The translations under genes and the position numbers were made by a program. 64,000 bases of DNA. Origin: Haloplanus sp. GDY1. Its GTDB lineage: Archaea > Halobacteriota > Halobacteria > Halobacteriales > Haloferacaceae. The stretch spans positions 868,001 through 932,000 of the forward strand of contig NZ_CP098514.1 in NCBI RefSeq assembly GCF_023703775.1, read 5' to 3'. Below the pieces are notes generated by a model that saw only the letters and a list, made by a program, of their open reading frames with translations, did no database searches and was not told the DNA's origin. Below, one piece after another: positions 3,469 through 22,199 of the stretch (position 1 is its first letter; each line of letters starts with the position of its first letter).

Positions 3469-6191
3469 TCGTCACCGTCACCCTCGATCTCCGCCGTCAC
3501 GCGCTCGTGGAACTCCCGGAGGACGGCGTCCTCGTCGTCCGCGAGGACGGTGTCGGTGGCCGCGAGCGTCGCGAGGCCGAACGCCCGGGGCGAGGGCGTC
3601 TCGACCGTTCGCTCGACCACCTCGATCCCCCCGTCGCGGATCCGCCGGAGGACCGACTCGATGCCCGCGACGTGGAGTTTGTCCTCCAGCAGTTCGCGGT
3701 CGGTCTCCTCGATCACCGCGAAGTCGTCGAGGTCGTCGGCCAGCGACAGCAGCGTCTCGCTCTCGACCTGCTGGCGCGCCGCCGACTTCTCCGTGCCCTT
3801 GTACCGCTTCAGGATCATGAGCGACCGCGTGGCGTCGATGCGGAAGTACCGCTTGCGGAGGTCGGTCCCGCGGAGGGCCGACCGGAGGTCCGCCCGGACC
3901 GCGTCGGGGTCGAGGCCCCGGAGGAGCCCGGAGACGTCGAGCCGGCGGTTCAGCGGCATCGAGAGGACGAACCCGTTGTCGGCGACGGCGACGGTGACGC
4001 TCGCGGTGGTCTGGTTTGCACACCTCGCGGCCAGCAGGCGCGAGAGGCCGTCGTTGACCCGCCGGCCATAGACGGTGTGGACGTAGTAGCGCCGGCGGTA
4101 CTCCTCCCGGTCGCGCTCCTCCTCGATCGCGATCCGGTCGGGCGTCGAGACGCCCGCCGGCCCGGCGAAGGCGACCTGTCGATCGTAGAGGCGGGTGAGG
4201 GCGCGCACCGCCCGTTCGGAGAGGACGTCGCCGCGGAGCCAGTCCCGGAGCGCGGGCGGCCCGCCGGCGTCCAGGCGGTCGAGGACGTCGCGCTGGAAGG
4301 CGAGGATTTCGCGCGCGAGGTCGAACGCGAGCGGCAGGCGCTCGGAGTACCACGAGGGCACCGTCGGCCGGGCGTTCGTCCGGTCGACGTACACCTTCGA
4401 CCCGCGGCGGTAGCGGAACTCGAAGCGCTCGCCGCCGATGACGAACACGTCGCCGGGGTCGAGGGTGTCGAGGTAGTCCTCGTCGAGGTGGCCGACCCAC
4501 TCGTCGCTCCCCCGCACGATCACCTCACAGGAGAAGGAGTCGGGGATGGTGCCGACGTTCGTCAGGTAGATCATCCGGGCGAGGCGCCCCCGCTTGCCGA
4601 TCAGGCGCTCGCCGACGTCGAACTCCGGGTGGTGGTGGTCGCCGTCGGGCGGGTCGTTGGCGTCCCGCCAGATCTTCGCGTACACGTCCCGCTCCGCCAG
4701 CCCCTCGTAGTCCGCGGTGAGGTAGCGAAACAGCGTCTCGAAGTCGTCGTCGCCGAAGTTCCGGTAGGGGTAGGCCTGCCGGAGGATCCCCCGCACCTCG
4801 CGTTCGGGGCGGACGCGGTTGATCGCCATCCCGTAGACGTGCTGTGCCGCCACGTCGTAGGCGTTCTCGGGGACGAACACGCGGTCGACGAACCCGGACT
4901 CGGCCTTGCGGGCCATCACGGCACACTCGACCAGGTCGTCGCGGTCCAGCGCGACCACCCGCCCCTCGACGACCTGTCCGACCTGGTGGCCGGCGCGGCC
5001 CACCCGCTGGAGGAGAGCCGCCACCGACTTCGGCGACCCCACCTGCACCACCAGGTCGACGTGGGGCATGTCGACCCCGAGTTCGAGGCTGGTCGAAGTG
5101 GTCACCACGTCGAGGTCGCCGGCCTTCAGCGCCGACTCGACCGCCTGCCGCCGGTCGGCCGAGAGGCTGCCGTGGTGACAACCGGAGTCCGACTCGTCGT
5201 ACCCGTGGCGGTCGCGCAGCGCCTGCAACACCCGCTCGGCGCCCGACCGGGTGTTCGTGAACACCAGCGTGTTGGTGTGGGCGTCGATCAGGTCGTCGAG
5301 CCGGTCGTAAAAGCGGTCGCGGACGACCGCCCCCGGCGTGGCCACGAGGTCGTCGACCGGACAGTCGACCTGCAGGTCGAACTCGCGGGCGAAGCGGGCG
5401 TCGACCACCTCGCAGTCGCGGGGCGGACCGCCCGGCGACTCCCGGCCGACGAGGAACTCGGCCATCGTCCCGACGGGGTCGACCGTCGCCGAGCAGCCGA
5501 TCCGGGTCGGCGAGCCGTCCGCCAGTTCCGTCAGTCGCTCCAGCGACACCGAGAGGTGGGTGCCGCGCTTGGTCGCCGCGAGCGCGTGAATCTCGTCGAC
5601 GACGACGTACTCCACGTGGCGGAGTTTCTCGCGGAACTTCGGCGAGTTGAGCAGGATGGCGAGCGTCTCCGGGGTCGTGTTGAGGACGTGTGGCGTCTCG
5701 GCGAGCATCGCCCGCCGCTCGGCGTCGTCCGTGTCGCCGTGGCGGGTGGCGTGTCGCACCGACGTCGACTCGCCGCGTGCCGCCAGTCGCTCCCGAATCC
5801 CGTCGAGGGGCTCCGCCAGGTTCCGGTGGACGTCGTTCGCGAGCGCCTTCAGCGGCGAGACGTAGAGACAGTACACCGCGTTCTCCAGTCCGCCCGCCCG
5901 CTCCCGGCGGAACAGTTCGTTGATGATGGCGGTGAAGGCGGCGAGGGTCTTGCCGCTCCCGGTCGGCGCGCAGACGAGCGCGTGCTCCCCCTCGGCGACG
6001 AGGGGGATGGCCTCGCGCTGTGGCGGCGTGAAGAAGCCGCCGTTCTCGGGGACGTACTCGCCGAACCGGTCGATCCACCAGTCGCGGACGGCGGGGTCGA
6101 GCAGTTCGAGGACGTCGGCGTCGGCCGCGGCCGACGCGTCGACGTCGCAGTCGGCAAGCGCGTCGACGACTCCCTCCTCGGGCCGGTCCAT
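3465..6191 (-). CDS. Lhr-like DEAD/DEAH ATP-dependent helicase
   Basis: A 908-residue SF2 helicase. The frame is open to 6218, but the ATG at 6191 gives a normal N-terminus (MDRPEEGVVDAL); the only upstream start is TTG. Motifs: TPPQREAIP (Q motif), Walker A APTGSGKT (residues 75-82), TTPETLAIL, DEIH (199-202), GCSAT, and motif VI QRVGRAGHQ. A long C-terminal part of ~450 residues matches the winged-helix and beta-sheet 'Lhr core' arrangement. Lhr-type enzymes are single-strand-DNA-dependent 3'-5' helicases in DNA repair. The stop codon shares CTAG (3465-3468) with the convergent nuclease-helicase gene, leaving no room for a separate terminator. Confidence 0.88.
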   Translation of the reverse strand: MDRPEEGVVDALADCDVDASAAADADVLELLDPAVRDWWIDRFGEYVPENGGFFTPPQREAIPLVAEGEHALVCAPTGSGKTLAAFTAIINELFRRERAGGLENAVYCLYVSPLKALANDVHRNLAEPLDGIRERLAARGESTSVRHATRHGDTDDAERRAMLAETPHVLNTTPETLAILLNSPKFREKLRHVEYVVVDEIHALAATKRGTHLSVSLERLTELADGSPTRIGCSATVDPVGTMAEFLVGRESPGGPPRDCEVVDARFAREFDLQVDCPVDDLVATPGAVVRDRFYDRLDDLIDAHTNTLVFTNTRSGAERVLQALRDRHGYDESDSGCHHGSLSADRRQAVESALKAGDLDVVTTSTSLELGVDMPHVDLVVQVGSPKSVAALLQRVGRAGHQVGQVVEGRVVALDRDDLVECAVMARKAESGFVDRVFVPENAYDVAAQHVYGMAINRVRPEREVRGILRQAYPYRNFGDDDFETLFRYLTADYEGLAERDVYAKIWRDANDPPDGDHHHPEFDVGERLIGKRGRLARMIYLTNVGTIPDSFSCEVIVRGSDEWVGHLDEDYLDTLDPGDVFVIGGERFEFRYRRGSKVYVDRTNARPTVPSWYSERLPLAFDLAREILAFQRDVLDRLDAGGPPALRDWLRGDVLSERAVRALTRLYDRQVAFAGPAGVSTPDRIAIEEERDREEYRRRYYVHTVYGRRVNDGLSRLLAARCANQTTASVTVAVADNGFVLSMPLNRRLDVSGLLRGLDPDAVRADLRSALRGTDLRKRYFRIDATRSLMILKRYKGTEKSAARQQVESETLLSLADDLDDFAVIEETDRELLEDKLHVAGIESVLRRIRDGGIEVVERTVETPSPRAFGLATLAATDTVLADDEDAVLREFHERVTAEIEGDGDD

Positions 6192-6309
6192 CGGTACGAG
6201 GTTGGTGCGGACGACCAAGTGGGTTGTGCCGGCCGCCTCGGCGGACGCGTGCTCCCGGCCGCTCCGGAGCGCAGCCGCTCGACCGCGCTCGCCGAGAGGA
6301 AAGAAGGGA

Positions 6310-7050
6310 TCAGGAGAGTCGTCGGAGCGCGATCAGCGCGACCAGCGCCAGCCCGACGAACGCCACGAGGTAGACGGGATCCTTCGTGATCGCGTCCAGC
6401 CGCGCGTTCCGGAGTTGTCCCTGAAGCGGCGTCCCGTCGGCGGACGACTCCGCCGCGGCGGCACCGCCGGAGTGGTCGTCGCGGTTCTCGCTCGACCCCC
6501 CGTCGCTGCCGTCCGTCGCCCCCGCGCGCTCGCCCGAGCCGTCCCCGAGGACGGTCAGGTTCGTCGCCCGGGCGTCGGTGGTGTAACTGTCGCCGCGCTC
6601 GTCGCCGAGCGCCGCCACCGTCAGATCGAGGCCGGTCGAGCCGGGGCCGTCGCCCCGGAGCGTCACCCTGGCGATGGTCACGTCTCCGGTGTCCGCGGTG
6701 TTCGTCAGCGCCGCGACCATCGTCGCCGACGAGCCGTCGGCGGCGAGGTCGACCCGACTGGTCCGTGCCGAGGGATCGCCCAGCAGTTCGACGTTCGTGA
6801 TGCTCGCTATACTCGGGTCCGTGAGTGCGACCGTGACGTTGTACGCGCCGACGCCGCCGCTCGCGTCGTCGACGACGACGTCGACCGTCGTGGTCTCGGA
6901 GACGGCGACGTCGTCGGCCGCCGCCAGCCGAACCGTCGTGGCTCCGGCCGCGCCGACCGTCGCCGCGGCCACGAGGAGCGTCACGACGACGACGGCCGCG
7001 AGTCTCGGTCCGCGTCCCGTCAGCAGGTCGCAAGCTGTGTCTCGGTTCAT
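6310..7050 (-). CDS. Membrane-anchored cohesin-like domain protein
   Basis: A 246-residue exported protein. It has a basic N-terminus and hydrophobic signal segment (~residues 18-40), then one cohesin-like beta-sandwich (~42-165). A hydrophilic Gly/Ser/Asp linker follows, and a C-terminal transmembrane helix ending in RRLS. The domain is clearly homologous to the two cohesin-like domains of the next gene upstream, sharing patterns such as GGVGAY, VELLG and DGSS. The layout (signal, cohesin, linker, anchor) is that of a surface receptor for dockerin-bearing proteins. It lies 46 bases downstream of the PKD/cohesin/dockerin gene on the same strand, probably in one operon. Function is inferred from architecture only. 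Confidence 0.75.
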   Translation of the reverse strand: MNRDTACDLLTGRGPRLAAVVVVTLLVAAATVGAAGATTVRLAAADDVAVSETTTVDVVVDDASGGVGAYNVTVALTDPSIASITNVELLGDPSARTSRVDLAADGSSATMVAALTNTADTGDVTIARVTLRGDGPGSTGLDLTVAALGDERGDSYTTDARATNLTVLGDGSGERAGATDGSDGGSSENRDDHSGGAAAAESSADGTPLQGQLRNARLDAITKDPVYLVAFVGLALVALIALRRLS

Positions 7051-7096
7051 GTGTGGTGGGTCGTTTCGAGAGGGAAGGGGAGAGGAGAACGCCGAC

Positions 7097-8890
7097 CTAG
7101 CCGGTCAGCTCGAAGAAGAGCGCCTGGACGTCGACGATGTTGACCGTCCCGTCGCCGTTGAAGTCGAACTTGTCGGGGTTGTTCTGGATCGCGTCGTCGT
7201 CGAGGTTGGCGAACAGGGCCTGGACGTCGACGATGTTGAAGTTCCCGTCGCCGTTGATGTCCTCGTACTGCTCGTCTGCGTCGGCGTTGGTCACCGGGTT
7301 GGCGAAGTCGCCGACGACGACCTCGGTGACGGTGAGCGACGCCCCGTTGGTGCCGGTGACGGCGTAGTTGTTGCCGTCCTCGTCGCCGAGGGCCGTGACC
7401 GAGGTGTCGAGGTCGGTCGAGCCGGCGTTCACACCTTCGACGGTGATGGTGGCGACGGTCACGCTCCCGGAGTCGGCGGTGTTCATCAGCGCGGCGTCGA
7501 TGGACACCGACGAGCCGTCGGTCGCGATGTCGACCTGCGAGGTCTGTTCGGCCGGGTTGCCGAGCAGTTCGACGTCGGTGATCTGGCCGACGCTCGCGTC
7601 GTCGAGCGAGACGGTCGCGGTGTAGGCGCCGACGCCGCCGTTCGCGTCGTCGACCACGAGGGCGTACTCGGTCGAGTCGTCGGTCGCGATCTCACTGCTG
7701 GTCGGCGAGAGGCTCACCGACGTCGACTTCTCCGTGACGGAGAGCATCGCGCCGCTGGTGCCGGCGACCGTGTAACTGGTCCCCTGTTCGTTCCCGATCG
7801 CGCTGATCGAGGGGGAGAGGTCGGTCGATCCCGCGGCGCTACCCTGGAGCGTGATCGTCGCGACGGTCACGCTCCCGGTGTCGTCGGTGTCCATCAGCGC
7901 GGCGTCGATGGCCACCGACGAGCCGTCGCCGGCGATGTCGACGTTCGTCGTCTGGCCGGCCGGGCTTCCCTGCAACTCGACGTCGGTGATCCCGCCGACA
8001 GCCGCGTCGTCGACCGACACCGTGGCCGAGTACGCCCCGACGCCGCCGTTCGCGTCGTCGATCACGAGGTCGTACGCGGTCGTGCCGCCGACGAAGGTCT
8101 GGCTGCTCGACGGCTCCATGCTCACCGTCGTCTCCATGTCGGGCGAGGGCTGCGTCTGATCGTCGGAGACGGTCACCGTCTCCTGGGCAGTCGCCGTCGC
8201 GCCGTCGTCGTCCGTGACGGTGAGTTCGACCGTGTAGGTGCCGCTACTGGTGTAGGTGTGCGAGGGCGACGCGCCCGTGGCGGTCGCTCCGTCGCCGAAG
8301 TCCCAGTCGTAGCTCGCGATGGAGCCGTCCGGGTCGGTCGACGCCGAGGCGTCGAAGCTCACCGACTCGTCGGTCTCCGGGTCGGCCGGCGAGTAGGTGA
8401 ACGAGGCGCTCGGGGCCTGATTCGACGGCCCCGCGTCGACCGTGACCGTCGACGACGCGGAGGCGGTGACGAAGCTGTCGTCGTTGGGGTTGATCGCCGA
8501 CAGATCGGCCGTCACCGTCCCGTCGCCGCTGGCGCTCGACGGGACCTGTACGGTGTAATCGACCGTGTGTGTCCCGCCGGACGTCCAGATCCACTCGTTG
8601 GTCGAGGACTTGAACGTCGCTCCCCCGGTGGCGTTCTGGCTGATCAGCGTCCACCCGCTCGGGAGGTTCGCCTGCACCGACGGGGCGTTGTTGTCCGTCG
8701 CGTCCACCTGCACCGTGAACGTGACCTGGTCACCGGGGCCGACCGTCGTCGTCGACGGTGTCTGTGTAACCGATACCTGCGTGGGGTCCGCGCTCGCGAT
8801 GCCGACCGCTCCGACGGTCGAGAGCGCGATCATGGCCGCGACGAGCGCGGCGAGTCCCCGTCTGAACGTGCCGTGATTCGTGTAGTTCAT
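7097..8890 (-). CDS. Secreted protein with PKD, two cohesin-like domains and C-terminal dockerin
   Basis: A 597-residue exported protein. The ATG at 8890 directly precedes a signal peptide ([13 protein letters not shown], hydrophobic core, ASA cleavage near 34); the open frame upstream is not protein-like. Order: an N-terminal Ig/DUF11-like beta domain (~36-140), a PKD domain with YDWDFGDG (~145-230), cohesin-like domain A (~240-365), cohesin-like domain B (~370-505). A C-terminal type-I-like dockerin (~525-597) carries two calcium-loop repeats, [17 protein letters not shown] and [17 protein letters not shown]. In bacterial cellulosomes cohesin binds dockerin. Having both on one chain suggests an adaptor that can chain or bridge partners. 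No catalytic domain is present. It lies between the giant malectin protein and the membrane-anchored cohesin protein. Confidence 0.82.
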
Positions 8891-9219
8891 CTGTCGTGTG
8901 GTTGCCGTTGGGATTCGCTGTCGGGGTCGCATCCCGCCCCGTCGATCCGAGGGCGGGTCGTCCGAGAGCACTTCTCGGATGGTCGGAGGCCGATCACCGC
9001 AGTGGTCCTCTGGACGTGGTGGGGACGGGCCGGCGCTCGACGCCGGTCGGGGGCATCCCCGAGCGGTCCCGTCTCCACCACCGATCCACACCGCCGATCC
9101 GACGTGCGCTCGGTCGGACGGGCCGTGACGGCGGTCGCGTCGCCGACGGCGGTCGACCGGTCACGGTCCGGGGCGGTACGGGGGTGATCCGTCATCGGTA
9201 TCGGCGATCGGACCGCGGT
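8891..9219. other. 329-base intergenic region without a gene
   Basis: This lies between the stop of the giant protein gene (9220) and the ATG at 8890. It is uniformly GC-rich. I see no TATA-like box or strong Shine-Dalgarno before 8890, and no stem followed by a T-tract. The frame of the downstream gene stays open to 9091 but its residues are Pro/Arg-rich and precede the real signal peptide. The downstream genes may simply be transcribed through from the giant gene. Confidence 0.5.
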
Positions 9220-12200
9220 CTACGCGGTGGTGTTCCCTCCCGAGGAGTCCTCGACGATCTCGATGGCCGACACTTTCGCGTTGTCGTTGACGGCTTCGAA
9301 GTCGACGTCGAGGGTGTCGTCGTCGGCCGACACCTGGAACGTCTCGACCGTCCCGACGAACCGACTGCCGCCGGCGGCCTCGTAGGGCTCGTAACTCTCG
9401 ACGAGCGTCTCGTTGTCGACGGTGATGTCGAACAGCCGCGGCGCGGCCGAACTGTTCTCGTAGTCGCCGCCGTAGGTGCCGATCTCGGCGAAGTAGAGCC
9501 GGACCTCGTAGCTCTGGTTCGCCTCGGCCGGGAACTCGTAGGCGAGCGTCCCGCCGTCGTACCGCTCCGACTCGAACAGCGCTTCCGGCGTCCCTGCGGG
9601 CACCGACGAGTCGAACGCGATGTCGAAGTCGTCGCTGTAGGTCTGTTGGCCGTTGACCATGTACGGCGAGGGACTACCGCCGGTGTCCCCGCCCCACGCC
9701 GGGCCGCCGTCGCCGGCCGCGACCTCGGCGCCGCCGGCGTTCACGCGGTAGAGGACGTTACCCTGGACCGGTTCGGTGACCGTCACCGTCGTCGTCGCCG
9801 TGCCGGTGGCGCCGTCGTCGTCGGTGACGGTCAGTTCGACGTCGTAGTCGCCGGCGCTCGTGAACGTGTGATCGACCTGCTGGCCGGTGGCGTCGGTCGT
9901 GCCGTCGCCGTCGAAGTCCCACGCGTAGGACTGGATCGTCCCGTCCAGGTCGCCGGACCCGGCCGCGTCGAAGCTCACCGTCTCGTCGACGGTGATCGAC
10001 GACTGGTTCGCCGTCGCCGACGCGTACGGGGCCTCGTTTTGCGCCGATCCGCCGACCTCGATCACCTCGATGGCGTTCACCTGCGGGTTCGGGTCGTCGA
10101 CGCTGCTCGGCCCGTGGAAGAAGTCCAGGTCGATGGTCCCGTCGCTGGTCACCGTGTAGCTCTCCATGTGACCGACGTTGTCCCCGGAGTTGGCGACGAT
10201 GTCGTAGTTCTCCTCGACGGTCGTGCCGTCGATGGCGACGTCGAACGCCCGGACGCCGGCCGATCCGGCGAACTGGTCGGCGTAGTAGAGGCGCAGTTCG
10301 ACGGTGTCACCCTGGGGCACGTCGAGTTCCCACTGCATCTCCGGGCCTTCGGGCGGGTCGCCGAGTTCGGTCGCGAACACCTGCTCCGGCGTGGAGTTCG
10401 GCACCGTCGAGTCGACCGAACTGGCCGGTCCGCGGTTCGGCGAGTCGGCGACGCCGTTGTAGTAGGTCGTGTCGCCGGCGGGGACCCCGATCCACTGGGG
10501 CCCGTCGTCGACCGCCGAGACGTTCGGCCCGCCGGCGTTCAGCCGGTAGAGGATCGACGGTGACGGCGCCGGCTCCGTGACCGTGACGTTGACGGTCCGG
10601 CTGTCGGTCAGCCCCGCGCCGTCCGTCGCCGTGACGGTCACCTGGTAGGTGCCGGCGTCGCCGGACTGCGGGTCGAGCGTCAGGTTCCCGGTGCCGTCGC
10701 CGTCGTCGGTGAACGTCGCGAACGCCGGGAGGCCCGAGGCCGAGAGCGTCGGCGTGTCGGCGTCGTCGCTCGCCGTGACCGCCACGTCGAGGCTCTGGCC
10801 CGCCTCGACGCTCTGGTCCCCGATCGGGGCGAGCGTCGGCGGCTGGTTGGCCGCGCCGACGGTGACCGTCGTCGTCGCCGTGTCGGTGGCGCCGTCGTCG
10901 TCGGTGACGGTCAGGTTCACCGCGTACGTGCCCGCGCTGTCGAACGTGTTGGTGACCTGCGAGCCGGTGGCGTCGGTCGTGCCGTCGCCGTCGAAGTCCC
11001 ACTCGTAGGAGACGATCGAGCCGTCGGTGTCGCCGGAGCCGGCCGCGTCGAAGGCGACCGCGTCGCCGGCGGTCACCGACGTCTCGTTGGCCGCGACCGA
11101 CGCCGTCGGCGGCTGGTTCGTGTCGCCGGGATCGGAGACGTTGACGACCTCGATCCCCTGGATCACCGGGTTCACGTCGCCGGCGTCGGATCCCTGGGCG
11201 AAGTCGACGTCCACGGTGCCGTCGCTCGTCACCGTGAACGTCTCGGTGTGGCCCGTGGCGTCGCCACCGGCGGCCGCGATGATGTCGAAGTTCGTGAGCT
11301 CCTGGGTCCCCTCGACGGAGACGTTGAAGTGTCGATCACCGGGCGCGGCGGTGTCCGAGAAGATGTCGGCGAAGTGGAGCCGAATCTCGACGGTCGTGCC
11401 GGCCTCGACGGGGAACTCCCACTGCATGGTCGGCGACGACGGCGGGTCACCGCGCTCGGATTCGAGGACCACGAGCGGGACGTACTCCGGGACCGTCCCG
11501 TCCGTGCTCGTGACCGCGTCGTAACTGCTGGGGTTGTTCGCCAGGCTGAAGGCATCGCTGCCGGTGTTGTGGTACTGGCTCGGCGACGACGAGTTGTCGA
11601 CGCTCCAGACCGGACCGTCGTCGAGCGATTCGACGGTCGGTCCGCCGGCGTTGATCCGGTAGAGGACGTCCGCCGGCCCCTGGACGGACGCCGTGACGGT
11701 GACAGTCTGGGTCGCCGTGTCGGTGGCGCCGTCGTCGTCGGTGACGGTCAGTGCGACGTCGTAGTCGCCGGCGCTCGTGAAGTTCGTCGTCGCCGTCGGT
11801 CCCGTCGCGTCGGTCGTTCCGTCGCCGTCGAAGTCCCACTCGTAGGACGCGATCGAACCGTCCGGATCGCTCGACCCGGCCGCGTCGAAGGTGACGTCCT
11901 CACCCGTCTCGGGGTCGGTCGGCGCGGCGGTGAACGACGCCGTCGGGTCCTGGTTCGTCGCGGCGGTCGGATCGTACTTCAGCACGACGACGTCGGAGGT
12001 GAGCCCCGTGTCACCCTCGCCGTCGTCAGCGACCGCCATGAAGTAGTTGTAGCCGCCCTCGGCGGAGGAGTTGAGCAGGGTCACCGGGATCTCGGCCGTC
12101 CCGTCCCCTCCGATCGTCGCGGTGTAAGCGGTCGAGTAGGCGTCCTCGGCGCCGACGACCTTGTTGGCCTCCAGGGTGTCGACGTCGTACCCGCCCGACA

Positions 12201-15200
12201 GGCCGTTGCCCTGGACGTAGAGCGCCGCCTCCGTGTGGAGTAGATGCACCGTCTCACCCGGCTGGCCGGTGACCGTGATCGTCTGCTGGTCGTCGGTCAC
12301 GACCGCGCCGCTGTAGGTCGGCGCACCGCCGGCCGCGCCGAGGGTGACGTTCGCCGCGTCGATGCTCGGCGCCGGGGCGACCGTCGCGTCGGCGACGGCC
12401 TGTCCGCCGGCGACGCTCCCGTCGCTGAACAGGTGGGTCGTCTGGGTCGCGCCGTTCGCGTACTCCACGGTCACCTCGGTCCCCGACAGTTCGAGGCCGG
12501 AGACGCCGCCGGTGGTCGCCGGGCCGGGCGCGCTCGCGCCCTTGATGCTGTTGGGGTCCATGTCGACCGTGTACTGGAGCGTCTCGCCGGCGCCGAAGTC
12601 GGTGAACTCGAGCTGCTGGACGTCCCAGCCGTCGTCCGGGTCGGCGCCGTTGTGGTACTCCGCGAAGCCAGTCGTCGTCGAGCCGCCGACGCCGTCGTAG
12701 ACGTCGAAGCCCTCGCCGGCGACGTCGCCGGCCGTGCCGTTCGGATCGAGCACCAGATCCGGCAGGAGCGCGGCGTCGTGGTCCATCGCCACGCTCTCGA
12801 TGGGCACGTCGCCCGTGTTCTCGATCCGGACGCCGTAGCTCCCGTTGCCGCCGGAGATGGCGGTGTCGACGCCCGCCGTGTTGTCGGTGGTGACCTCGAT
12901 CAGCGCCGAGGGGTTCGCGGCCCCGGGCTGGCTGACGGTGACCGTCTGGGTCGCCGTGTCGGTGGCGCCGTCGTCGTCGGTGACGGTCAGTGCGACGTCG
13001 TAGTCGCCGGCGCTCGTGAAGTTCGTCGTCGCCGTCGGTCCCGTCGCGTCGGTCGTCCCGTCGCCGTCGAAGTCCCACTCGTAGGACGCGATCGAACCGT
13101 CGAGGTCGCTCGACCCGGCCGCGTCGAAGGTGATCTGCTCGTCGACCTCCGGCGCGCTCGGCGCGTAGGTGTACGACGCCGTCGGCGGGGTGTTACCGTC
13201 GCCCGAGACCGACACGACCTCGATGGCGTTGACGAACGGGTTCGTATCCGGCGTCCCGGAGCCGTGGAAGAAGTCCAGGTCGATCGTGCCGTCGCTCGTG
13301 ACGGTGAACGACTCCATGTGACCGGTGTTGTAGCCGGCCTCGGCGATCGGGTCGTAGCCGTCCAGCACCGTCTGGTTCTCGATCTCGGCGTCGAAGTTCC
13401 GCTGGTTCGGCTCCGGCTGCGGAGCCAGTTCGTCGGCGAAGTAGAGGCGCACCTCCACCGTCTCGCCGTCGGGCACGTCGAGTTCCCACTGCATCTCGGG
13501 TCCCGCGGGCGGATCGCCGAGTTCGGTCGCGAACACCTGCTCCGGCGTGGAGTTCGGCACCGTCGAGTCGACCGAACTGGCCGGTCCGCGATTCGGCGAG
13601 TCGGCGACGCCGTTGTAGTAGGTCGTGTCGCCGGCGGCGACGCCGAGCCACTGGGGCCCGTCGTCGACCGCCGAGACGTTCGGCCCGCCGGCGTTCAGCC
13701 GGTAGAGCACCTGCCCGGCCGTCGGGGCCGGACTCACCTGGATCGTCTCCGTCGCCGTGCCGGTCGCGCCGTCGTCGTCGGTGACGGTCAGTTCGACCGC
13801 GTAGGTGCCGGGGCTCGCGAACGCGTGGGTGACCTGCTGGCCGGTGGCGTCGACGACGCCGTCGCCGTCGACGTCCCACTCGTAGGAGACGATCGAGCCG
13901 TCGGGATCGGTCGACCCCGAGCCGTCGAAGGCGACCGCGTCGCCGGCGGTGATCGACGTCTCGTTGGCGGCGATGGACGCGCTCGGGTCCTGGTTCGACG
14001 GCTCGACCGTCTCGCCCTCCGCCCACGTGTCGATCAGCAGCTGCAGTTCGGGCGTGGTGATCGTCTCACCGTAGCCCGGGACGACCTCGTCTTCCGCCCA
14101 CCAGTTGATGGCGAGCTGGAGTTCCTGCGTGTCGATCTCGTCGGCCGGCGCGTTCTGCCCCGCGATGACCTCGGCGAGGGTCTGGTCGCCGTCGGTCCCG
14201 TTGTCGACCGCCACGATCTCGATGCCCGAGACCATCGGGTCGTCGCTGACGTGCAGGAGGTCGATGTCGAGGGTTCCGTCGGACGGCGTGACCGTGAAGT
14301 TCTTCGTCGTGCCGACGTCGTGGCCGACGTCCTCGTGGATCTCGTAGTCGTCGAGCACCTGCTGGCCCTCGATCTCGGCGTCGAAGATCCGCGGGCCGTT
14401 CTCCTCGCCGGAGTCGGACTGCGTCCCGTCCGGACCGTACCACGAGGTCTCGGCGAAGTGGAGGCGGACCTGGTAGCTCTGGCCGGCGGTGACCGGGAAC
14501 TCCCACTCCTGGGAGCCGTTGTCGTTGCCGTCCCAGCGGTGGGACTGGAACATGAGTTCCGGCGTTCCCGGCGGCACCGACGGGTCGAACGTGATCGAGT
14601 CGTCGGTGGTGGCGGTGCTGTCGGTCGTGATCCGGTACGGCGACGGATCGCTCCCGGTGTCGGCGTCCCAGTCCGGACCGCCGTCGGTCGCGGTGATCGA
14701 CGGGCCGGCGGCGTTGACGCGGTAGACGACCTCGCCGTCGGTTGGCTGATCGCCGTCGCCGGCGTCGGTCACGGTGATCGTCGCCGTCTCGCCGTCCGAG
14801 AGCCCGTCGTCGTCAGTGACGGTCAGGCTCACCTGGTAGGTGTCGGCCGTCGAGTAGTTGTGGACGACCTGCTGGCCGGTGGCGTCGGTCGTGCCGTCGC
14901 CGTCGAAGTCCCACTCGTAGGACTGGATCGTCCCGTCCGAGTCGGTCGATCCCGACGCGTCGAAGACGACGTCCTCGCCGGTCTCCGGGGCGGACGGCAC
15001 CACGGAGAACGAGGCCGAGGGCGCCTGCTCGACGGCCGTGGGATCCTCGGGCGTCACTTCGATGAAGTCCCACGTCGCCGGGAAGGTCGCGTAGCCGTTG
15101 GTCGTCGAGTAGGTCCCGACCGCCAGCCCGCCGTCGCTGCCGTCGAGCCAGGCGTCGGGGATCGACGTCGTCCCGACGGTCACGTTCTGCCCGCCGTCGA

Positions 15201-18200
15201 CGGCGTACTCGGCCGTCACCGTGTCGTTCGTCGGGTCGACGTGCATCCAGAGGTCGATGCGCTTGTTGTCGCCGACGACCGCCGAGTCCTGGGGCATGTT
15301 CACCAGGCTCAGCGAGCCGTCGACCTCCTTCGTGAACTCGACGCCGCCGTCGCCGCCGTGGGCGGTCACGACGAGTTTCGACCAGTTGTCCTGATCGCCG
15401 GTGCCGAGGAAGACCCCGACCTGCTGGTTGCCGTCGGAGCCACCCTGTGGGGTCTGGCCGCCGTCATCGGGGAACGGGTCCTGGACGACGGTGTGGACCG
15501 TGAAGTTCTCGCTCGGCGGGTTCACGCCGAACTGGAACCCGTTTTTCATGTCGTTCTCCGGCGTGCCCGCGTCGCCCGCGTCGACCTCGTTGATGACCAG
15601 GTCCTGCGACGCGCCGCCCTTGAAGATGTTCTCGTCCTCGTAGAGGTCGGCGTAGTCGGTGCCGTTGGTCATCAGGCCCGTGAACCCGAGGTCGAGGAGC
15701 GTCCCGGGGTAGGAGGCGGCCTGGAAGTTCCGCTCGACGGGCAGCGTCGTCGACAGCCCGTTGTCGGCGTCGATGGCGAACGGATCCTCCGTGTCGGGGA
15801 TGCCGTCGTTGTCGTCGTCGGGATCGTTCAGGTTGGACGTCCCGTCGTCGTCGTAGTCGGTGGGCTGTGACGCCGCCGAACAGGGGTCGGTCCCCGCGTC
15901 GATCTCGTCGGCGTTGTCGTAGCCGTCCCCGTCCTCGTCCAGGGTCGGGTCGTCGGCGCCGGTACAGGTCTCGGGATCGGTCTGTTCGTAGTCGTTCGGC
16001 TCGAACGCGACGATCCCGTCGCTGCCGCCGAAGCCCGGTCCAGCGGGGTTGCTGCTGTACCGCACCACCCACACGGTGCCCGGGAACTTCTCGTCGTCAC
16101 CCTGTGCGGTGACGTCGAGCGGGATCGACCCGAACCCGGAGAAGATCTGCGTGTTCGAGGTGGCGTCCGTGCCGTCCGCCGTCAGCTGGACGCGGTGAAC
16201 GGTGTTGTCGAAGCTCGCGATGAGCAGGTCGCTCTGCATCTCCCCGCCGAAGTTCGAGGCGGTGTACTCGGTCATCCCGTTCGTCGACGCACCGAACTCC
16301 GCGATGGAGCCGTCGTCGGGGAAGTCCCCGCTCGACGGGTGTTCGTACTGGCACTCCTCGGGGTTGGCCATGCTGAACGGAACCGGCGTGAAGCTGGCGT
16401 TGAAGTCGAGCACCTTGTCGGTGGCACCGGTCGCCGGATCGTACAGCCCCGCCACGCTCGGACTCGCCCGCGTGGGGTTCGGATGGCCGGCGTAGAAGCC
16501 CTCGCCCGGGATGTAGTGGATCTGGTCGGGACCGCCGAAGCTACCGGAGCTGTCGGCGTTGGTACAGCCGCCCTGAACGGAGACGGGGACGCCCCCGCTC
16601 CCGTCCGGCCCGTTGTCGCTGGCGTACATCTGCCCGTCCTCGGAGATGATGACGTCGTAGGGGTTGCGGTAGCCGGGCGAGTAGACCTGCACGGGGCCGT
16701 TCACCGTGAGCTTCCCCTGGTTGCGCCCGTCGAGGCCACCCCACGGGGCGTCGGTCGGCGCGACGGACTCGTCGGGCTGGAGCGTGGGGAGGTCGTACTT
16801 GATCGGGTCGCCGTCCGCGTCCGTCTCGGTCGGCATCGAGTCGATCTGATCGAGGTCGATCGAGAGGATCGCCGCCGAGGTGGCGTACTCGGGGAGGTAG
16901 CGGAACTGGTTCCCCGGCGCGCCGTGCATCGTGTGGCCGCCGTTGGCCAGGTACAGCGTGTTCGTCGTCTCGTTCAGCGCCAGTCCGTTGGGCGAGTGCG
17001 CCTCGGAGGACCGGGCGATGCCGCGGACGAGCTGGACGTGGTTCCAGGACGATCCCGTCCACGTCAGCCGGGAGACCACACCGGAGTTCGTGTCGATGGA
17101 CTCCGACGGCGGATCGTGTCCGCCGACGTTGAACCGCGGATCGCTGGAGGAGACGTAGATCACGGGGTTCTCGGCCGTCCCCTCGACGAGGATCCCGGTG
17201 ACCTGCCGTTCGTCGGCGTCGGAGCCGGTGTAGACGCTCCCGTCGTCGTTGTGGTTGGTGATGTCGTCGACGACGCCCGTGATCTCCTCGACGCCCGTCA
17301 CCTCGTAGTCGTTCTCACCCTGGCGCTCGACGGTGAACGCCTTGATGACGCCGGACTCCTGGGCGACGTACAGCCGCCCGTCCGGACCGAAGTCAAGCGC
17401 GGTCCCGCTGGTGATGTTCGTCGTGAGGACGCTGGAGTCGAACCCGACCGGGATGTTGCTGCTCGCGTCACCCGCCAGATCGACGGTCGTCGGCGTGTTG
17501 TTACCCGAGTGGCTGACCTCCAGCGTCGCTCCCTTCGCGCCCGCGCTGTCGGGCGCGAACGTGACCGGGATGCTCGTCGACTCGCCGGGCTGGAGCGTGA
17601 CGCTGCCGGAGTCGTCGAAGCCGTCGGAGAACTCGCTCGCGTCGGGGCCGACGATCGACGTGCTCTCGACGGTGATCGTCGGATCACCGTCGTCGCCGAG
17701 GTTCGTCAACTGCACCGACTCGGTCGTGGTGTCGTCGATCACGGTCGGTCCGAAGTCGACCGTCGAGGGAGCGGCGCCGAGTTCGTTCGGCGACGGCTCC
17801 GACTGGACGATCTCGATGGCGTTGACGAAGGGGTTCGTGTCGGACGCGCCCGATCCGTGGAAGAAGTCGATGTCGACCGTGCCGTCGCTGGTCGTCGTGA
17901 ACGACTTCATCGTGCCCACGTTGTGGCCGACGTCGTCGTTGGGATCGTAGCTCTGGAGCACGGTCGAGCCCTCGATCTCCACGTCGAAGGAGCGGTCCTG
18001 TGCGTGCTGGTCCGCGAAGTAGAGACGCACTTCGACCTGCGTGCCGTCCGGCACGTCGAACTCCCACTGCATCTCCTCGCCGCCCGGCGGGTCGCCGATC
18101 TCGTTGACGAACACCTCGTCGGGTGTGTCCGCCGGCACGCTCGCATCGATCGAGGAGGCCGCCGAACCGGACGGTGTATCGCCCGCCGCATCCCCGTTGA

Positions 18201-18414
18201 AGTAGGTCGTCGACGAGGCGCTCACCCCCTCCCAGTCCGGCCCGGAATCCAGGGCGGTGAGCGTGTCCCCGCCCGCGTTCACTCGATACAGGGTCGTGGG
18301 CGCCGCGGACGCGACGCCGGAACCCAGGGCGACCGTCCCCGCGAAGACGGACGTCACCATGAGTATCGAGACCAGTACCGCCGCCAGTCGGTTGTTCGTT
18401 CCCGGCAAGTGCAT
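9220..18414 (-). CDS. Giant secreted malectin/PKD multidomain protein (3064 residues)
   Basis: Signal peptide ends near residue 38 (GVASA|A). Approximate domains: malectin-like 1 (40-200); choice-of-anchor/ASPM-like beta domain (205-315); six-bladed propeller resembling glucose/sorbosone dehydrogenases (320-810, with DFGPDGRLYV and SPNGLALN); calcium-type TSP3 repeats (817-882, DEDGDGYDNADE); LamG-like domain (885-1120); PKD1 (1127-1215); malectin 2 (1226-1403); two dockerin-like repeats (1410-1472); PKD2; malectin 3; PKD3 (to ~1826); an unassigned beta-rich region (1835-2151); PKD4; malectin 4; PKD5; a cadherin/He_PIG-like Ig domain (2520-2615); malectin 5; PKD6; malectin 6 at the C-terminus. 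Malectin folds bind glycans. No glycoside-hydrolase motif is visible and there is no C-terminal anchor, so attachment may be through the dockerin repeats to the neighbouring cohesins. Confidence 0.85.
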   Translation of the reverse strand: MHLPGTNNRLAAVLVSILMVTSVFAGTVALGSGVASAAPTTLYRVNAGGDTLTALDSGPDWEGVSASSTTYFNGDAAGDTPSGSAASSIDASVPADTPDEVFVNEIGDPPGGEEMQWEFDVPDGTQVEVRLYFADQHAQDRSFDVEIEGSTVLQSYDPNDDVGHNVGTMKSFTTTSDGTVDIDFFHGSGASDTNPFVNAIEIVQSEPSPNELGAAPSTVDFGPTVIDDTTTESVQLTNLGDDGDPTITVESTSIVGPDASEFSDGFDDSGSVTLQPGESTSIPVTFAPDSAGAKGATLEVSHSGNNTPTTVDLAGDASSNIPVGFDSSVLTTNITSGTALDFGPDGRLYVAQESGVIKAFTVERQGENDYEVTGVEEITGVVDDITNHNDDGSVYTGSDADERQVTGILVEGTAENPVIYVSSSDPRFNVGGHDPPSESIDTNSGVVSRLTWTGSSWNHVQLVRGIARSSEAHSPNGLALNETTNTLYLANGGHTMHGAPGNQFRYLPEYATSAAILSIDLDQIDSMPTETDADGDPIKYDLPTLQPDESVAPTDAPWGGLDGRNQGKLTVNGPVQVYSPGYRNPYDVIISEDGQMYASDNGPDGSGGVPVSVQGGCTNADSSGSFGGPDQIHYIPGEGFYAGHPNPTRASPSVAGLYDPATGATDKVLDFNASFTPVPFSMANPEECQYEHPSSGDFPDDGSIAEFGASTNGMTEYTASNFGGEMQSDLLIASFDNTVHRVQLTADGTDATSNTQIFSGFGSIPLDVTAQGDDEKFPGTVWVVRYSSNPAGPGFGGSDGIVAFEPNDYEQTDPETCTGADDPTLDEDGDGYDNADEIDAGTDPCSAASQPTDYDDDGTSNLNDPDDDNDGIPDTEDPFAIDADNGLSTTLPVERNFQAASYPGTLLDLGFTGLMTNGTDYADLYEDENIFKGGASQDLVINEVDAGDAGTPENDMKNGFQFGVNPPSENFTVHTVVQDPFPDDGGQTPQGGSDGNQQVGVFLGTGDQDNWSKLVVTAHGGDGGVEFTKEVDGSLSLVNMPQDSAVVGDNKRIDLWMHVDPTNDTVTAEYAVDGGQNVTVGTTSIPDAWLDGSDGGLAVGTYSTTNGYATFPATWDFIEVTPEDPTAVEQAPSASFSVVPSAPETGEDVVFDASGSTDSDGTIQSYEWDFDGDGTTDATGQQVVHNYSTADTYQVSLTVTDDDGLSDGETATITVTDAGDGDQPTDGEVVYRVNAAGPSITATDGGPDWDADTGSDPSPYRITTDSTATTDDSITFDPSVPPGTPELMFQSHRWDGNDNGSQEWEFPVTAGQSYQVRLHFAETSWYGPDGTQSDSGEENGPRIFDAEIEGQQVLDDYEIHEDVGHDVGTTKNFTVTPSDGTLDIDLLHVSDDPMVSGIEIVAVDNGTDGDQTLAEVIAGQNAPADEIDTQELQLAINWWAEDEVVPGYGETITTPELQLLIDTWAEGETVEPSNQDPSASIAANETSITAGDAVAFDGSGSTDPDGSIVSYEWDVDGDGVVDATGQQVTHAFASPGTYAVELTVTDDDGATGTATETIQVSPAPTAGQVLYRLNAGGPNVSAVDDGPQWLGVAAGDTTYYNGVADSPNRGPASSVDSTVPNSTPEQVFATELGDPPAGPEMQWELDVPDGETVEVRLYFADELAPQPEPNQRNFDAEIENQTVLDGYDPIAEAGYNTGHMESFTVTSDGTIDLDFFHGSGTPDTNPFVNAIEVVSVSGDGNTPPTASYTYAPSAPEVDEQITFDAAGSSDLDGSIASYEWDFDGDGTTDATGPTATTNFTSAGDYDVALTVTDDDGATDTATQTVTVSQPGAANPSALIEVTTDNTAGVDTAISGGNGSYGVRIENTGDVPIESVAMDHDAALLPDLVLDPNGTAGDVAGEGFDVYDGVGGSTTTGFAEYHNGADPDDGWDVQQLEFTDFGAGETLQYTVDMDPNSIKGASAPGPATTGGVSGLELSGTEVTVEYANGATQTTHLFSDGSVAGGQAVADATVAPAPSIDAANVTLGAAGGAPTYSGAVVTDDQQTITVTGQPGETVHLLHTEAALYVQGNGLSGGYDVDTLEANKVVGAEDAYSTAYTATIGGDGTAEIPVTLLNSSAEGGYNYFMAVADDGEGDTGLTSDVVVLKYDPTAATNQDPTASFTAAPTDPETGEDVTFDAAGSSDPDGSIASYEWDFDGDGTTDATGPTATTNFTSAGDYDVALTVTDDDGATDTATQTVTVTASVQGPADVLYRINAGGPTVESLDDGPVWSVDNSSSPSQYHNTGSDAFSLANNPSSYDAVTSTDGTVPEYVPLVVLESERGDPPSSPTMQWEFPVEAGTTVEIRLHFADIFSDTAAPGDRHFNVSVEGTQELTNFDIIAAAGGDATGHTETFTVTSDGTVDVDFAQGSDAGDVNPVIQGIEVVNVSDPGDTNQPPTASVAANETSVTAGDAVAFDAAGSGDTDGSIVSYEWDFDGDGTTDATGSQVTNTFDSAGTYAVNLTVTDDDGATDTATTTVTVGAANQPPTLAPIGDQSVEAGQSLDVAVTASDDADTPTLSASGLPAFATFTDDGDGTGNLTLDPQSGDAGTYQVTVTATDGAGLTDSRTVNVTVTEPAPSPSILYRLNAGGPNVSAVDDGPQWIGVPAGDTTYYNGVADSPNRGPASSVDSTVPNSTPEQVFATELGDPPEGPEMQWELDVPQGDTVELRLYYADQFAGSAGVRAFDVAIDGTTVEENYDIVANSGDNVGHMESYTVTSDGTIDLDFFHGPSSVDDPNPQVNAIEVIEVGGSAQNEAPYASATANQSSITVDETVSFDAAGSGDLDGTIQSYAWDFDGDGTTDATGQQVDHTFTSAGDYDVELTVTDDDGATGTATTTVTVTEPVQGNVLYRVNAGGAEVAAGDGGPAWGGDTGGSPSPYMVNGQQTYSDDFDIAFDSSVPAGTPEALFESERYDGGTLAYEFPAEANQSYEVRLYFAEIGTYGGDYENSSAAPRLFDITVDNETLVESYEPYEAAGGSRFVGTVETFQVSADDDTLDVDFEAVNDNAKVSAIEIVEDSSGGNTTA
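10359..10551. repeat. Internal direct DNA repeat, copy in malectin 5
   Basis: These 193 bases match 13515-13707 (malectin 3) with about four mismatches by eye, offset 3156 bases (1052 codons, in frame). This points to recent duplication or gene conversion between the two malectin modules. Confidence 0.85.
11705..11894. repeat. Internal direct DNA repeat, copy in PKD4
   Basis: These 190 bases match 12944-13133 (PKD3) with about four mismatches by eye, offset 1239 bases (413 codons, in frame). Recombination between them would delete the unassigned region and one PKD. Confidence 0.85.
12944..13133. repeat. Internal direct DNA repeat, copy in PKD3
   Basis: Partner of 11705-11894. Confidence 0.85.
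13515..13707. repeat. Internal direct DNA repeat, copy in malectin 3
   Basis: Partner of 10359-10551. Confidence 0.85.
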
Positions 18415-20761: not shown

Positions 20762-20839
20762 GGGAGCCGCCCCCGGCCGGCGTCCCGACGTCGACGACGG
20801 AGACACAACGGTCAAGTCGTCAGTGGGACTATCCCCTGT

Positions 20840-21148
20840 ATGGCAGAGAAGAAGTTCACCCTCCTCGAACTCAACCTCGGCGACGGCACCCTCCAGATCG
20901 GACCCGCGACGCTCGGCGGCGACGGGGGCGGGATCGACGGACCGGACCTCGACCTGGACCTGGACGACGACGTCGAACTCGACGACGAGGACGACGACGG
21001 CCGCTGTCCCGGCCGCACGGTCGGCAAACTGCTCGTCGCCGTCCTTCTGCTGGCGGTCGTCGCGCTGGTCGCGAAGAAGCTCCTCGGGAGCAGCGAGTAC
21101 GACGACCTGGAGGAACTCGAAGACCTCTCGGATCTGGACGAGGAGTGA
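20840..21148 (+). CDS. Small single-pass membrane protein
   Basis: A 102-residue protein. Residues 1-30 are a Gly-rich segment opening MAEKKFTLLELNL, followed by a run of Asp/Glu (35-54). A Cys-Pro-Gly turn leads to one membrane helix (~61-80, KLLVAVLLLAVVALVAKKLL) and an acidic tail (DLEELEDLSDLDEE). The acidic segments on both sides are typical of haloarchaea. I do not recognise a function. It precedes mevalonate kinase by 43 bases on the same strand but has no obvious link to that pathway. Confidence 0.7.
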   Translation: MAEKKFTLLELNLGDGTLQIGPATLGGDGGGIDGPDLDLDLDDDVELDDEDDDGRCPGRTVGKLLVAVLLLAVVALVAKKLLGSSEYDDLEELEDLSDLDEE

Positions 21149-21191
21149 GCATCCGGACACCTTAAGCGACGGCCGGTCCGTAGGGACGGGT

Positions 21192-22199
21192 ATGACGGTA
21201 TCGAGTGCGCCGGGCAAAGTGTACCTCTTCGGCGAACACGCCGTCGTCTACGGCGAACCCGCCGTACCCTGTGCCATCGAGCGGCGAGCGACGGTGACCG
21301 TCGAGACGCGGGACGACGATCACGTGCGCGTCGAGGCGTCGGACCTGAGCCTCGACGGCTTCACCGTCGAGTACGCGGGGTCGACCGGCGACCGACCGGA
21401 CGTCGACGTGCCGGCGTCGCTGGTGGACGCGGCGATGGGCTACGTCGACGCGGCGGTCGAACAGGCCCGCGAGGCCGCCGACGCGCCCGACGCCGGCTTC
21501 GACATCACCGTCGAGAGCTCGATCCCCCTCGGCGCGGGCCTGGGGTCGTCGGCAGCGGTGACGGTGGCGGGCATCGACGCGGCGACGCGAGAACTCGGCC
21601 GGGAGCTGTCGGCACGCGAACTCGCCGACTACGCCTACCGCGCCGAGTCCGCGGTCCAGGACGGCCAGGCGTCGCGCGCGGACACCTTCTGCTCGGCCGT
21701 GGGGGGCGCCGTCCGGGTCGAGGGCGACGACTGTCGCTCCATCGAGGCGCCGGACCTCCCCATCGTCGTCGGCTTCGACGGCGGTGCGGGCGACACGGGC
21801 GAACTCGTCGCCGGCGTCCGCGCGCTCAAGGAGGAGTACGACTTCGCGGCCGACACCGTCGCCACGATCGGGGACCTGGTGCGGATCGGCGAGCGGGTCC
21901 TCGACCCCGAGGCCGACGCGGGCGCCGACGACCGACTCGCGGAACTCGGCCGACTCATGAACTTCAACCACGGCCTGCTTGAGTCGCTCGGCGTCTCCTC
22001 GCGGTCGCTCGACAGCATGGTGTGGGCGGCCCGCGAGGCCGGCGCTCACGGCGCGAAGCTCACGGGCGCCGGGGGCGGCGGCTGTATCGTCGCGCTCGAC
22101 TCCACGCCGGAGACGCTGACGGCGCTCCGGTTCACGCCGGGGTGTGAGGAGGCGTTTCGCGCCGAACTCGCGACCGACGGCGTCCGGAGGGTGGAATGA
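21192..22199 (+). CDS. mvk: Mevalonate kinase
   Basis: A 335-residue GHMP kinase that phosphorylates mevalonate in archaeal lipid precursor synthesis. The start is the ATG at 21192; the open frame before it is not protein-like. Motif 1 is SAPGKVYLFGEHAVVYG (residues 5-21). The ATP loop is PLGAGLGSSAAVTVA (112-126), the catalytic Asp lies in ADTFCSAVGG (163-172, D164), and motif 3 is KLTGAGGGGCIVAL near 291-304. The stop overlaps the ATG of isopentenyl phosphate kinase by four bases, so the two steps are translationally coupled. Confidence 0.95.
   Translation: MTVSSAPGKVYLFGEHAVVYGEPAVPCAIERRATVTVETRDDDHVRVEASDLSLDGFTVEYAGSTGDRPDVDVPASLVDAAMGYVDAAVEQAREAADAPDAGFDITVESSIPLGAGLGSSAAVTVAGIDAATRELGRELSARELADYAYRAESAVQDGQASRADTFCSAVGGAVRVEGDDCRSIEAPDLPIVVGFDGGAGDTGELVAGVRALKEEYDFAADTVATIGDLVRIGERVLDPEADAGADDRLAELGRLMNFNHGLLESLGVSSRSLDSMVWAAREAGAHGAKLTGAGGGGCIVALDSTPETLTALRFTPGCEEAFRAELATDGVRRVE

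Follow-up and report, generated by a model that had tools for sequence, protein, structure and literature searches.

We examined 64,000 nucleotides of the haloarchaeon Haloplanus sp. GDY1 (NCBI RefSeq assembly GCF_023703775.1, contig NZ_CP098514.1, forward-strand positions 868,001 to 932,000), a stretch that we call the window. Three consecutive genes on its minus strand encode proteins that we call the anchor, the adaptor, and the giant. Together they probably specify a non-cellulosomal scaffold of the cohesin-dockerin kind, small and closed, by which the giant is held on the surface of the haloarchaeal cell. The likely job of the system is to hold, and perhaps to oxidize, extracellular carbohydrate at the cell surface. 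Below, W denotes the window locus, L-numbers the loci of relatives with which it was compared, and G-numbers genomes.

An initial annotation, made from the sequence alone, had predicted three co-oriented exported proteins at this locus: a membrane-anchored cohesin, an adaptor with two cohesins and a dockerin, and a giant with six malectin domains. This outline was confirmed. All three open reading frames (ORFs) open with a signal-peptide-like hydrophobic segment, and the anchor consists of one cohesin and a C-terminal hydrophobic helix. Pfam recognized no domain in the anchor. It found PKD, DUF11, and Dockerin_1 in the adaptor, and seven PKD and six malectin stretches in the giant, the latter above the cut-off (PF11721, E 1e-72).

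Predicted cohesin-fold domains that the family libraries miss

The Pfam Cohesin model (PF00963) matched nothing in the window or the genome, and none of 14 relatives at E 1. NCBIfam likewise gave no cohesin match. Since Pfam was silent, the claim that these domains are cohesins needed a test of the fold. We modeled adaptor cohesin 2 together with the dockerin in AlphaFold2, using 35 sequences, and obtained a predicted local distance difference test score (pLDDT) of 91.4. When the cohesin model was searched against the PDB with Foldseek, the 38 best hits were all cohesins (E 5e-11 to 6e-7), among them the non-cellulosomal Archaeoglobus fulgidus cohesin 2xdh (E 4e-10). A cohesin sequence profile run against 177,635 PDB sequences placed three cellulosomal scaffoldin cohesins at the top, at weak E values of 0.09 to 0.3. 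One distant bacterial relative, L113, found with the haloarchaeal model, gave a full-length Pfam Cohesin match (E 0.031), the only such match among the cohesins compared. PF00963 is an operational marker of the cohesin fold, not its definition, and on the strength of the predicted model we treat the three domains as cohesin-fold domains.

A canonical dockerin that accompanies cohesins

The adaptor ends in a canonical dockerin. Its Dockerin_1 match reaches 30.2 bits against a cut-off of 22.9, and both of its 12-residue calcium-binding loops are complete, as they are in nearly every relative. Profile searches of the genome found three cohesins, one dockerin, and one copy of a further module, EIQ, every one of them inside the locus; the search for other dockerin proteins that the initial annotation had recommended found none elsewhere in the genome.

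We surveyed 392 genomes of the order; neither the cohesin-Dockerin_1 counts below nor the later propeller-cohesin count is corrected for phylogeny. The cohesin profile matched 153 genomes and Dockerin_1 matched 170. Both were present in 121, cohesin only in 32, dockerin only in 49, and neither in 190 (Fisher p 3e-31); put differently, Dockerin_1 was found in 121 of the 153 cohesin genomes versus 49 of the 239 cohesin-free ones. When loci were picked by cohesin alone, 19 of 20 also held a dockerin within a stretch of at most 20 kb. The earlier view of archaeal cohesins as merely scattered therefore does not hold for this order, and, if our reading is right, the haloarchaeal receptors have been overlooked for want of a match to the Pfam model.

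Might the beta-sandwiches be adhesion domains of cohesin fold with no affinity for dockerins, the dockerin being a leftover or a glycan-binding domain? The silence of Pfam Cohesin would fit, and cohesin-fold domains have been described in the animal adhesion molecules TMEM132 (PMC6030884), which perhaps behave in this way. Moreover, the type I dockerins of Natronoglomus hydrolases (PMC10963439) and of a haloarchaeal glycosaminoglycan (GAG) lyase (PMC13260240) were read as substrate-binding, with cohesin unmentioned. However, the near-universal retention of both calcium loops, the adjacency and genome-wide co-occurrence of cohesin and dockerin genes, and the yield of the cohesin-picked loci make this explanation very improbable. 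The window locus argues that haloarchaeal dockerins are attachment plugs and not substrate binders.

The three genes recur together in many genera

Across many genera the genes usually stand in the order giant-adaptor-anchor. The giants share the architecture malectin - propeller - beta-sandwich-like domain - PKD - (malectin) - EIQ or dockerin, followed by further malectins; the adaptors consist of PKDs, one or two cohesins, and a dockerin; the anchors have one to three cohesins and, usually, a C-terminal helix. The propeller family of the giant is sharply defined, occurring in 23 of the 392 genomes and in 14 genera, and a cohesin was present in 22 of these 23. Giant and cohesin-dockerin genes were found, for example, in Halorubrum salsamenti and Haloarcula pellucida, and in the Haloferax loci compared, adaptor and anchor stood as a pair with no giant. 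Viral contigs yielded no EIQ, propeller, or cohesin-dockerin sequences. Judging from these comparisons, the recurrence of modules, cohesins, and gene order in so many genera is not due to chance, and we regard the anchor-adaptor-giant set as a conserved haloarchaeal cassette.

Some anchors differ at their ends. The cohesin-only "anchor" proteins L068:3977-6982 and L072:3372-6149 have no membrane helix at the C terminus; instead they close with CARDB-like repeats and a duplicated repeat of helical appearance (DEIAQAKYD...), which are perhaps an alternative means of cell attachment.

EIQ, a candidate plug on the giant

The initial annotation had also described dockerin-like repeats in the giant. 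A duplicated module, EIQ, does exist there, but it is not a canonical dockerin: neither a Dockerin_1 match (Pfam) nor calcium loops (loop inspection) were found in the window EIQ, and we have not filed it as a dockerin. Pfam and NCBIfam searches found no family for it. The predicted EIQ model has two loop-helix units. In eight distant members (L144, L145, L146, L147, L148, L158, L113, and L143), a complete 12-residue EF loop, such as DEDDDGEIDDDE, lies in register in the first repeat and the second repeat is degenerate. This pattern suggests that calcium binding was lost toward the cassette members. With the distant members included in the profile, EF-hand proteins were the best PDB hits, and we take EIQ to be an EF-hand-derived duplicated module. 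A PDB search with the cassette EIQ sequences alone returned chance hits to unrelated proteins.

EIQ and dockerin replace each other among the giants. A canonical C-terminal dockerin without EIQ was found in giants L068, L069, L070 (part 1), L082, L084, L130, and L133; the others carry EIQ without a dockerin, except for L128 and L132, which carry neither. In part 1 of L070, the dockerin occupies the very place after malectin 2 that EIQ has in the window giant. Giants with either module had an adjacent cohesin gene in 21 of 22 loci, whereas no such gene adjoined L128 and L132, the complete giants that lack both modules (p 0.011). Strong EIQ matches co-occurred with cohesin in 18 of 19 genomes. 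Outside the cassette, EIQ lies at the extreme C terminus of secreted proteins, as many dockerins do.

Several side observations concern these modules. In L070:7158-15632 and L133:4290-13981, two genes encode the giant between them; the first part closes with a dockerin and the second opens with a cohesin, as though a cohesin-dockerin joint had taken the place of a covalent link. Secreted haloarchaeal proteins ending in EIQ (L139:4781-6883, L140:6026-8149, L143:7261-11289, and L080:8235-10817) are of the following kinds: phosphoesterase with CBM96, trypsin-like, G8/CEMIP beta-helix with cupredoxin, and NPCBM with laminin-G. On a bacterial contig assigned to Fraserbacteria (L113:5981-11293), an EIQ-bearing protein adjoins a cohesin-dockerin-dockerin protein. 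Hence, the association extends beyond the archaea.

A predicted sugar dehydrogenase-type propeller in the giant

The initial annotation held that the complex may bind cells or extracellular glycans and not degrade them. In keeping with this, Pfam identified no glycoside hydrolase and no cellulose-binding module in the anchor, adaptor, or giant. The notion of a binder only does not stand, since Pfam GSDH (PF07995) matched a propeller in 15 of 15 relatives. The window copy was matched over a short stretch at E 2e-6 and 27.8 bits, exceeding the curated cut-off of 25, and His..Asn and Arg-Asn motifs are conserved in all 15 propellers. From its sequence, we assign the propeller to the glucose/sorbosone-dehydrogenase type, within the pyrroloquinoline quinone (PQQ) sugar dehydrogenase superfamily. 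The match and the conserved motifs therefore leave open a role in which the giant may oxidize sugars as well as bind glycans.

The domain beside the propeller aligned in 15 relatives and matched GH43_C2 in 3 of the 15 (best E 8e-4); the window copy gave no GH43_C2 match. A search for PqqC was uninformative on the source of PQQ because its controls were silent.

These features bear on a further reading, compatible with the scaffold, in which the giant would mainly be a sugar oxidoreductase built from the propeller and the malectins and kept near the cell. The system would then resemble a one-enzyme cellulosome that uses oxidation instead of hydrolysis. The consistent GSDH matches and motifs speak for it, as does the good conservation of the propeller and its adjoining domain. 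However, the best PDB match of the propeller (2ism, E 0.002) is weak and short and falls on the RNP..GP motif, the same one that underlies the GSDH match; the DNGP region varies in some giants; and propellers can be pure binding domains. We consider such a role for the giant possible, while leaning somewhat against it.

A proposed assembly and the evidence against it

We propose that the C-terminal helix of the anchor would sit in the membrane, displaying one cohesin outside the cell. The calcium-loaded dockerin of the adaptor would plug into this cohesin, and the two adaptor cohesins would in turn hold the secreted giant through EIQ. In sister genera, canonical dockerins on the giants would serve in place of EIQ. 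The payload, which joins several malectins to a sugar-dehydrogenase-type propeller, would retain extracellular carbohydrate at the surface and perhaps oxidize it. The surface scaffold envisaged in the initial annotation is partly supported: the predicted cohesin fold, the dockerin, the conserved gene set, the closed set of partners, and the GSDH-type propeller stand; the pairing of plugs with sockets, the docking of the giant by EIQ, the glycan ligand, and any enzymatic activity are things that we infer.

Partner choice was approached through the cohesin tree, in which cohesins from different genomes group as anchors or as adaptors, with 12 label changes versus a mean of 30 for shuffled labels (0 of 500 shuffles were as low). 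The clustering fits two sockets and two plugs, in which the dockerin would go to the anchor and EIQ to the adaptor. The loop ends of the dockerins vary as well: VGDAQ is common to dockerins on giants and outer adaptors, and VVDVQ occurs on the membrane-proximal adaptors of L068 and L069. The contrast, noticed post hoc, is seen in L068, L069, L082, and L125, and a plug code paralleling the cohesin clades is possible. A G-type dockerin accompanied a cohesin of one clade in 7 of 7 loci versus 8 of 24 others (p 0.002), a comparison that is suggestive but post hoc, ignores kinship, and includes several scan artifacts; we do not rely on it.

Alternatively, the adaptor might polymerize with itself, its dockerin fitting its own cohesins as well as that of the anchor and so forming surface chains or branches, with the giant undocked and EIQ serving otherwise. 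The anchor cohesin shares 46-52% of its residues with each adaptor cohesin, and a shared ligand is thus possible; the sole canonical dockerin is the adaptor's own; and EIQ has no significant dockerin match. On the other side, the anchor cohesins of W, L065, and L066 fall outside a supported clade that unites the adaptor cohesins of these three loci with those of L067; many adaptors have a single cohesin; and a giant gene with EIQ or a dockerin is nearly always present. We regard self-polymerization as unlikely.

Several observations weigh against the assembly that we propose. EIQ and dockerin were not significantly similar by hhalign (p 0.34; 0.029 with the distant members), and scoring of EIQ half-repeats with the dockerin hidden Markov model against shuffles was negative. 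Foldseek gave no significant match for EIQ from a shallow, three-sequence model (best E 0.77); 7 of the 24 hits were dockerins and several more were calbindin/S100 EF-hands. Secreted proteins with a terminal EIQ occur as well where the genome yielded no cohesin (e.g., G247 and G263), and L124 is an EIQ giant without a nearby cohesin gene. Cohesin clusters follow the type of giant imperfectly, the adaptor of L085 has CARDB-like repeats where cohesins are expected, and the GSDH similarity of the propeller is confined mainly to one motif. Taking both sides together, we give EIQ about an even chance of binding cohesin. Somewhat more tentative is the broader suggestion that EIQ, descended from a pair of EF-hands, is a new, calcium-independent type of dockerin by which secreted proteins of haloarchaea plug into cohesin receptors invisible to current domain libraries. 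The plugged proteins would be the giant and, elsewhere, the phosphoesterase with CBM96, the trypsin-like protein, and the G8/CEMIP-type protein.

Features and neighbors of the locus

Coordinates are collected in Table 1. The mechanical ORF of the adaptor spans 7097-9091; its likely start is the ATG at 8890, just upstream of the signal peptide. The cassette adjoins two helicase genes on opposite strands, one of the Dna2/AAA_11-AAA_12 type (793-3468, plus strand) and one of the Lhr type with DEAD_assoc (3465-6218, minus strand). Upstream of the giant, at 20823-22199, lies a GHMP kinase gene with a galactokinase-type signature; nothing ties this kinase to the system.

Table 1. Features of the anchor-adaptor-giant locus (window coordinates)
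Feature	Position	Strand	Description and evidence
Anchor protein	6310..7050	-	246 aa: signal peptide, one cohesin, acidic Ser/Gly-rich linker, C-terminal transmembrane helix
Anchor C-terminal hydrophobic helix	6325..6381	-	Hydropathy scan, mean hydropathy 2.29
Anchor cohesin domain	6547..6939	-	Profile match E 1e-61; 46-52% identity to adaptor cohesins
Adaptor protein	7097..8890	-	~597 aa: signal peptide, DUF11, PKD, two cohesins, C-terminal dockerin
Canonical type I dockerin of adaptor	7106..7309	-	Pfam Dockerin_1 E 5e-7; two complete calcium-binding loops
Adaptor cohesin 2	7322..7723	-	Profile match; AlphaFold2 pLDDT 91.4; Foldseek cohesin matches, best E 5e-11
Adaptor cohesin 1	7730..8131	-	Profile match; cohesin-tree position
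Adaptor PKD domain	8168..8422	-	PKD_4 E 1e-25
Giant payload protein	9220..18414	-	3064 aa, signal peptide, no C-terminal anchor seen
Malectin domain 6	9262..9756	-	Pfam PF11721; C terminus of giant
Malectin domain 5	10069..10554	-	Pfam PF11721
Malectin domain 4	11170..11667	-	Pfam PF11721
Malectin domain 3	13222..13710	-	Pfam PF11721
EIQ module	13996..14181	-	One 62-residue duplicated loop-helix unit, EF-hand-derived, calcium ligands lost; candidate dockerin equivalent
Malectin domain 2	14221..14730	-	Pfam PF11721; just N-terminal of EIQ module
Conserved domain beside propeller	15037..15789	-	Weakly GH43_C2/concanavalin-like
Predicted GSDH-type beta-propeller	15982..17466	-	Pfam GSDH PF07995; conserved H..N and R-N motifs
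Malectin domain 1	17815..18291	-	Pfam PF11721; mapping of relatives' architecture

Implications and comparison with known systems

If our reading is correct, plug-and-socket assembly in the manner of cellulosomes is widespread among haloarchaea and serves glycan chemistry at their surface, and the published interpretation of haloarchaeal dockerins would shift from substrate binding to attachment. The locus would also offer a system of three proteins, few enough for full reconstitution, in which cohesin-dockerin assembly, perhaps with a calcium-free plug, could be studied at molar salt, and its salt-tolerant pairs would be useful as parts for protein engineering.

The clostridial cellulosome consists of an anchoring scaffoldin, an adaptor scaffoldin, and dockerin-bearing enzymes. 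The window locus shares this logic of anchor, adaptor, and payload, as well as the cohesin and type I dockerin folds. It differs in having one payload, a membrane helix as its anchor, and EIQ on the payload where a canonical dockerin sits in the cellulosome; moreover, no glycoside hydrolase is found in the three proteins and no cellulose-binding module was identified in the adaptor. A cellulosome proper is ruled out: the single dockerin of the genome is on a scaffold protein, and the three proteins include no hydrolase.

Another related system is that of Archaeoglobus fulgidus, in which the gene for a cohesin-plus-dockerin protein lies beside that for a cohesin protein. The likeness lies in an archaeal cohesin fold (2xdh) outside any cellulase context. 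That system is not known to have a giant payload; in the haloarchaeal one, the payload gene is conserved, a protein may hold two or three cohesins, and C-terminal membrane anchors and EIQ are present.

Archaeal versions of the cohesin-dockerin pair have been verified to form specific, strong bonds (PMC9012536). Proteins with one dockerin and several cohesins, comparable to ours, occur in anaerobic methanotrophic (ANME) archaea, where surface attachment was proposed (PMC9012536). The ANME payloads, solute-binding and S-layer proteins among them, vary between genomes (PMC9012536), whereas in haloarchaea one cassette recurs, its giant being of the malectin/GSDH kind. The Natronoglomus and GAG lyase proteins are, like those described here, haloarchaeal, with type I dockerins on secreted carbohydrate-active proteins; unlike in those reports, cohesin receptors are here encoded next door. 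A literature search that covered mainly openly available papers found no description of haloarchaeal cohesins. The haloarchaeal set would work as a scaffold in miniature, and it adds a payload cassette to the archaeal cohesin-dockerin pairs and multi-cohesin proteins already known.

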